Shown here: piece after piece, positions 5,617 through 6,295 of the stretch
Position numbering within the stretch: position 1 is the stretch's first letter
Layout of the letters: each line of letters begins with the position of its first letter
Origin: Acidobacteriota bacterium
Lineage (GTDB): Bacteria; Acidobacteriota; Blastocatellia; Pyrinomonadales; Pyrinomonadaceae
NCBI GenBank assembly: GCA_029557535.1
Contig: JAKQII010000116.1
Span: forward strand, 1-48,464
Length of the DNA: 48,464 nt
Direction: 5' to 3'
Notes under the pieces: model-generated
What the model saw: only the letters and a program-made list of their open reading frames with translations
What the model was told of the DNA's origin: nothing
Database searches by the model: none
Position numbers and translations under genes: made by a program

Positions 5617-5713
5617 GCGGTCGGAAGCGGACATCTGCCAGTTTATTCGAGATAATTTTCCCAGACAAATGGAATGATCCGTGCAGTTTGCGGAATCTTG
5701 TCTCTGGAGGACT

Positions 5714-6295
5714 ATGCACAAATTCACCCGCACCCTGATCACAACGGCTTTCGCGCTGATCGCGTTCAGCGCCGGACTGTTCGCCCAGTCACGCGCCACA
5801 ACCGAACCGCTACGTATTGGTGACACCGCGCCCGATTTTGTTCTGACGGATCAGAACGGTAAACAAGTGACGCTGTCGGAAGCCGCCTCACCGGCCGTTC
5901 TCGTATTCTACCGGGGGTTTTGGTGACCGTTCTGTTTTCGGCAGTTGGCCGAACTCAGGACATTGCTTGGGGCAAATGAGAACGTGAAACTGTTCGCGTT
6001 GAGTATCGATCCGGTCGAGAGAAACAGGGAACTGGCGGCGCGGATCGCGAAGGACGGAAACGGGGAAGTGAACTATCCGATCCTGTCTGATCCGGGGCAC
6101 AAGACGATCGACGCGTACGGACTGTTCGATACGGACTATCTCGGCCAGGAATTCGAAGGGATCCCGCATCCGACGGTGATCGTTATTGACGCGGAGCGCA
6201 AGGTTCAGTGGATAAAGGTCGAGCCGAACTATAGAAAACGCCCTTCGAACGCCGAGATCAGGGCAGAGATTGACAAAATGAGGTCGAAGAAATGA
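5714..6295 (+). CDS. Exported peroxiredoxin-like selenoprotein (UxxC), read through UGA 5924-5926
   Basis: The frame is open from ATG 5714 to TGA 6293 except for one in-frame TGA at 5924-5926. Read as selenocysteine this gives 193 aa with Sec at residue 71 in the motif FYRGFW-U-PFC-FRQL, exactly where AhpC/TSA peroxiredoxin-like proteins carry WCPxC. The flanks are intact family sequence: IGDTAPDFVLTDQNGKQVTL before and LFALSIDPVERNRELA, GIPHPTVIVIDAERKVQW after. Residues 1-25 are a signal peptide, so it should reduce peroxides in the periplasm. A SECIS-like hairpin follows the UGA directly. GGAGG at 5706-5710 precedes the start, rather close (3 nt). A GTG at 5681 is a weaker start. Without recoding it would be a pseudogene, which the conserved flanks argue against. 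Confidence 0.88.
5929..5961 (+). promoter_or_regulatory. Bacterial SECIS element for UGA 5924
   Basis: Immediately 3' of the UGA the coding strand folds as a lower stem GTTCTG (5929-5934) with CAGGAC (5956-5961, one G-U pair), a 2x2 internal loop, and an upper stem TTCGGC (5937-5942) with GCCGAA (5948-5953) closed by the pentaloop AGTTG. The loop starts 17 nt after the last base of the UGA and has G at its second position. Both fit what is known of bacterial SECIS elements bound by SelB (G in the first two loop positions, about 16-37 nt from UGA). Confidence 0.82.

Follow-up and report, generated by a model that had tools for sequence, protein, structure and literature searches.

Evidence for an intact UxxC peroxiredoxin-like selenoprotein gene with a predicted export signal in a Pyrinomonadaceae genome

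The Prx-like thiol:disulfide oxidoreductase selenoproteins, which correspond to 'Prx-like 1' of the GOS survey, are described in the accessible parts of the literature (PMC1088965, PMC2398784, PMC9312934, PMC13188914) as PF00578 proteins with a UxxC motif, a bSECIS element after the UGA, and Cys homologs. In addition, a 'Redoxin family protein' with UxxC and PF08534 appears in Table 1 of PMC13188914, and the bSECIS model quoted in the accessible part of that paper has a G in the first two positions of the apical loop, followed by a U. Of the paper titles retrieved, none was recognised as reporting an enzyme assay on a Prx-like selenoprotein with UxxC, and the literature searched yielded little on selenoproteins of the lineage studied here.

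The window, i.e., the whole stretch of 48,464 nucleotides that was analysed, corresponds to contig C251 in an Acidobacteriota genome of 4.77 Mb (404 contigs, 98% complete). The protein encoded at 5714-6295 shares with the Prx-like thiol:disulfide oxidoreductases the PF00578 domain, a UxxC motif where Sec peroxiredoxins have TxxU, a bSECIS hairpin and Cys homologs; this likeness is one of features, the representative WP_010940744.1 having been compared solely by its description in those sources. With the Redoxin family protein, likewise known by its description in PMC13188914, it shares UxxC and a PF08534 match (75.5 bits), but PF00578 (AhpC-TSA) scores higher (95.1 bits over residues 35-166, gathering score 26). 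The Redoxin family protein may represent the very subfamily to which the window protein belongs. The gene is well supported as a further member of a selenoprotein class that has been described before. No NCBIfam model reached its cut-off on the window protein: PrxU (NF040737) gave 27 bits against a curated cut-off of 270, and the SelL-related redox protein (NF040769) gave 36 bits against 120; the ResA/TlpA profile, with a cut-off of 170 bits, gave 46. The AlphaFold model (mean pLDDT 78.1) has a peroxiredoxin fold, with Z of 23.7 to Bcp4 and 23.0 to AhpE.

The features of the locus are listed in Table 1. The frame contains a single internal TGA, at codon 71, and with this TGA taken as a residue the translation reads ...LVFYRGFWUPFCFRQL..., giving the motif FYRGFW-U-PFC. 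As had been proposed from the sequence-only reading, ordinary gene calling splits the gene into two table-11 ORFs (5681-5926, 81 aa; 5945-6295, 116 aa), and the TGA lies inside an otherwise intact AhpC/TSA gene, with the PF00578 match running straight across it. By base composition alone, the chance of 122 open codons 3' of the TGA is approximately 0.003. The gene stands alone, with NAD synthase upstream and a response-regulator/HATPase protein downstream, both on the minus strand. Among the Sec-like TGAs listed for the window and judged by eye, only the one at 5924 combined a redox motif with a convincing gene. The export that had been suggested agrees with an N-terminus that, judged by eye, resembles a signal peptide; in several relatives of the UxxC gene, lipobox-like N-termini were observed instead of a Sec-type signal peptide.

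Table 1. Coordinates of the features of the UxxC selenoprotein locus in the window
Feature	Position	Strand	Basis
Shine-Dalgarno-like GGAGG, 3 bases 5' of the ATG	5706..5710	+	sequence
Probable selenoprotein gene, 193 aa, Sec at position 71, AhpC/TSA (peroxiredoxin-like) fold, UxxC	5714..6295	+	frame read through TGA, homologs, fold
Predicted Sec-type signal peptide, approximately residues 1-24 (MHKFTRTLITTAFALIAFSAGLFA/QS)	5714..5785	+	sequence judged by eye
UGA codon, predicted to be read as selenocysteine (U71)	5924..5926	+	Sec machinery, homologs, SECIS
bSECIS hairpin, GUUCUG-uu-UUCGGC-AGUUG-GCCGAA-cu-CAGGAC	5929..5961	+	folding, re-codings, covariation, TGA ranking
Cys74 codon; probable partner residue of U71, opposite the peroxidatic Cys in alignments with peroxiredoxins	5933..5935	+	alignments
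Apical loop AGUUG, 16 nt from the UGA	5943..5947	+	folding; bSECIS model quoted in PMC13188914
True stop TGA, not Sec	6293..6295	+	homolog ends at about the same place; without comparable hairpin 3'

The hairpin, which comprises 33 bases and begins two bases 3' of the UGA, fits the quoted bSECIS model in both loop and spacing. When the peptide was re-coded synonymously 200 times, only 2 versions equalled it, and among the 1563 TGAs on both strands of the window it ranked 7th (2nd among the 447 with a G[GU] loop), compared with 222nd for the terminal TGA of the gene. In 20 TGA-bearing relatives, the upper stem was paired in 87.5% of cells, compared with 10-40% after sliding, and none of 500 shuffles reached the covariation score; in one relative (L067), A-U in place of the majority G-C represents a double change. 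The Leu codon in the loop is TTR in 14 of 19 TGA forms, compared with 85 of the 294 other Leu codons of the same genes (p = 1e-4), and more distant members keep the hairpin with different letters, e.g., CUCAGCUU-GGA-AAGCUGA. SECIS energy alone separated TGA forms from Cys forms weakly (Mann-Whitney p = 0.057), and L037, alone among the Cys forms, also scored well against synonymous re-codings. Near-copies of the hairpin sequence were observed in two other Cys forms, L053 and L056 (TTCGGCAGTTGGCGGAT and TTCGGCAATTGACCGAA), and are perhaps relics of a former Sec codon.

A PF00578-type relative was found in all 145 related genomes, and a closer UxxC/CxxC member in approximately 40. Cys or Sec at position 71 in all close homologs had been named as supporting evidence, and the alignment bore this out: of 30 homologous loci, 21 carry TGA there and the remaining 9 a Cys codon (TGC or TGT). 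The 20 further stretches show U in UxxC (18), C (1) or a different TxxU protein (1, L082), and in relatives from dozens of genomes both flanks align, with U or C at the exact site. An exact short-peptide search of the genome contigs with the single protein returned distant relatives only, owing to the exact-match method, and plasmid homologs among the matches listed are less than 33% identical and were uninformative. TAA and TAG codons flagged inside some homologs proved, in the loci read, to be terminal stops rather than Sec codons.

Cys occupies the site in the two closest relatives, L036 from the same family and L037 from the same genus, indicating that the enzyme should also work with Cys. 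The tree, which is weak (13 of 27 inner branches open), intermingles Sec and Cys forms, and its best version has five changes. Compared with relatives, 39, 28 and 62% of codons of the window gene differ at positions 1, 2 and 3 downstream of the TGA, and 32, 26 and 68% upstream. The claim that both flanks are conserved in frame thus holds, with purifying selection on each side of the TGA.

The same genome contains a tRNA-Sec with a UCA anticodon (65.8 bits, gathering score 47), SelB (380.8 bits, whole model covered), SelA (527 bits) and SelD (353 bits), so that the SelA, SelB, SelC and SelD said to be required by the cell are all present. The SelD (L018) is itself a Sec form: its catalytic site contains an in-frame TGA (SCAG-U-VAK). 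Co-occurrence of the machinery with TGA forms is a weak test, since SelA passes its cut-off in 131 of the 145 related genomes and the set is too unbalanced. In one genome (G118), TGA-bearing relatives were observed with no real SelA match, and assembly gaps are probable there (480 contigs).

The PF00578 match, the SECIS hairpin, the Sec machinery and a site occupied exclusively by U or C agree on a UxxC peroxiredoxin-like selenoprotein, and we consider it very probable, leaving the substrate aside, that the locus is one intact selenoprotein gene with a UxxC centre. A decaying gene in which a Cys codon (TGC or TGT) had mutated to the nonsense codon TGA would account for a TGA one base away from the Cys codons and for closest relatives that are Cys forms. 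Signs of decay, to which the sequence-only reading had pointed as contrary evidence, were looked for, but both flanks proved intact and constrained, with dN/dS of approximately 0.13 against L037 downstream of the TGA; moreover, dozens of genomes have TGA at the same site, the conserved hairpin is mostly absent from the Cys forms, and the genome possesses the full Sec machinery, which makes a pseudogene highly improbable. Genome-wide reassignment of TGA to Trp or Gly, or a sequencing error, is still harder to credit: nothing in support of either was found. The gene terminates with a TGA of its own, at a point where the stop codon of homologs is TAA, TAG or TGA. The internal TGA turns up independently in further assemblies, and its counterpart in alignments is Cys rather than Trp or Gly. 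A pseudogene, a reassigned code and an assembly error were all rejected on the conserved TGA, the SECIS, the constraint and the terminal TGA.

The Sec had been placed exactly at the peroxidatic cysteine, and this part of the earlier reading is wrong: by three alignments, U71 corresponds to the Thr of TxxC and Cys74 to the peroxidatic position. HMMER alignment to solved structures matched FW-C-PF-C both to DF-T-PV-C in LsfA, a 1-Cys peroxiredoxin, and to WCPHC in a ResA variant; against AhpE and proteins of the PrxQ type, the family profile gave an equivalent placement. In direct alignment, U71 stands opposite the Thr of TPGC (Bcp-type) and of TGG-U (an Acidobacteriales TxxU protein), and Cys74 opposite the peroxidatic residue of both; U71 also aligned with the first (N-terminal) Cys of the thioredoxin/ResA CxxC. 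The PxxxTxxC motif of canonical peroxiredoxins is replaced by R67 at the P and U71 at the T, with the final C kept as Cys74. The catalytic Arg of peroxiredoxins is Pro in the window protein (HP vs HR). The position of U71 at the Thr and at the first Cys of ResA, that of Cys74 at the peroxidatic residue and the change of Arg to Pro together point to a thioredoxin-type UxxC centre on a peroxiredoxin fold. The protein therefore resembles PrxU (TxxU) in fold and selenoprotein nature but differs in that the Sec of PrxU occupies the peroxidatic position and the window Sec lies three residues earlier. ResA/TlpA thiol-disulfide oxidoreductases are alike in the first Cys of CxxC, whereas peroxiredoxin structures match the window protein better. 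ResA is an exported protein, which is comparable with the predicted export of the window protein.

On this basis, SelB and tRNA-Sec, brought in by the hairpin, would insert selenocysteine at UGA-71, and the terminal UGA would act as a normal stop. The mature protein would reside outside the cytoplasm and have an active site of the thioredoxin type set in a peroxiredoxin fold. The reactive nucleophile would be Sec71, which directly precedes helix 72-86; after its attack on the substrate, Cys74, a turn further along, would resolve it to a Sec71-Cys74 selenenylsulfide. An exported thiol reductant would then reduce this bond, and the enzyme would cycle between the selenol/thiol and selenenylsulfide states, as we infer from the positions of the two residues.

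Action outside the cytoplasm as a thiol:disulfide oxidoreductase is the most likely function, although we hold this with limited confidence. The same selenoprotein could instead be a thiol peroxidase in which Sec71, or Cys74 with Sec71 resolving, reduces peroxides, a serious but less probable alternative. It draws on the peroxiredoxin fold, on top structural matches that are peroxiredoxins throughout (PrxQ/Bcp, AhpE) and on Cys74, which every aligned member retains at the peroxidatic position. It is opposed by the replacement of the P and T of PxxxTxxC by R and U/C, by the Arg position, which in 18 aligned members is P, A or T and never Arg, and by the TxxU peroxiredoxin with the Arg kept that the genome already has. 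The particular form of an exported Sec/Cys peroxidase with a peroxidatic Cys74 and the Sec at the Thr position as a built-in resolving residue appears unlikely; if true, its chemistry would differ from that of both PrxU and ResA.

What looks like a pair of broken ORFs becomes one exported selenoenzyme that is probably functional. Many related genomes contain the UxxC gene together with its conserved SECIS, and it is named by none of the NCBIfam models. Close relatives that have retained the Sec machinery differ in whether they carry the Sec or the Cys form, and a TxxU peroxiredoxin is encoded in this genome as well; the clade therefore offers a good natural test of the benefit of Sec at two positions of one fold.

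This second exported-looking AhpC/TSA selenoprotein (L088, G000:C166:7783-8154, minus strand) has its Sec at the true peroxidatic position, with the motif FYVLAFTGG-U-TREL and the Arg kept, and is thus a TxxU peroxiredoxin; the same type was also observed in L082 (same genus) and in L021 (an Acidobacteriales MAG). In some relatives, two or three UxxC paralogs per genome were observed (L044, L065, L066 and L067, in genomes G017 and G066), some of them with lipobox-like N-termini.
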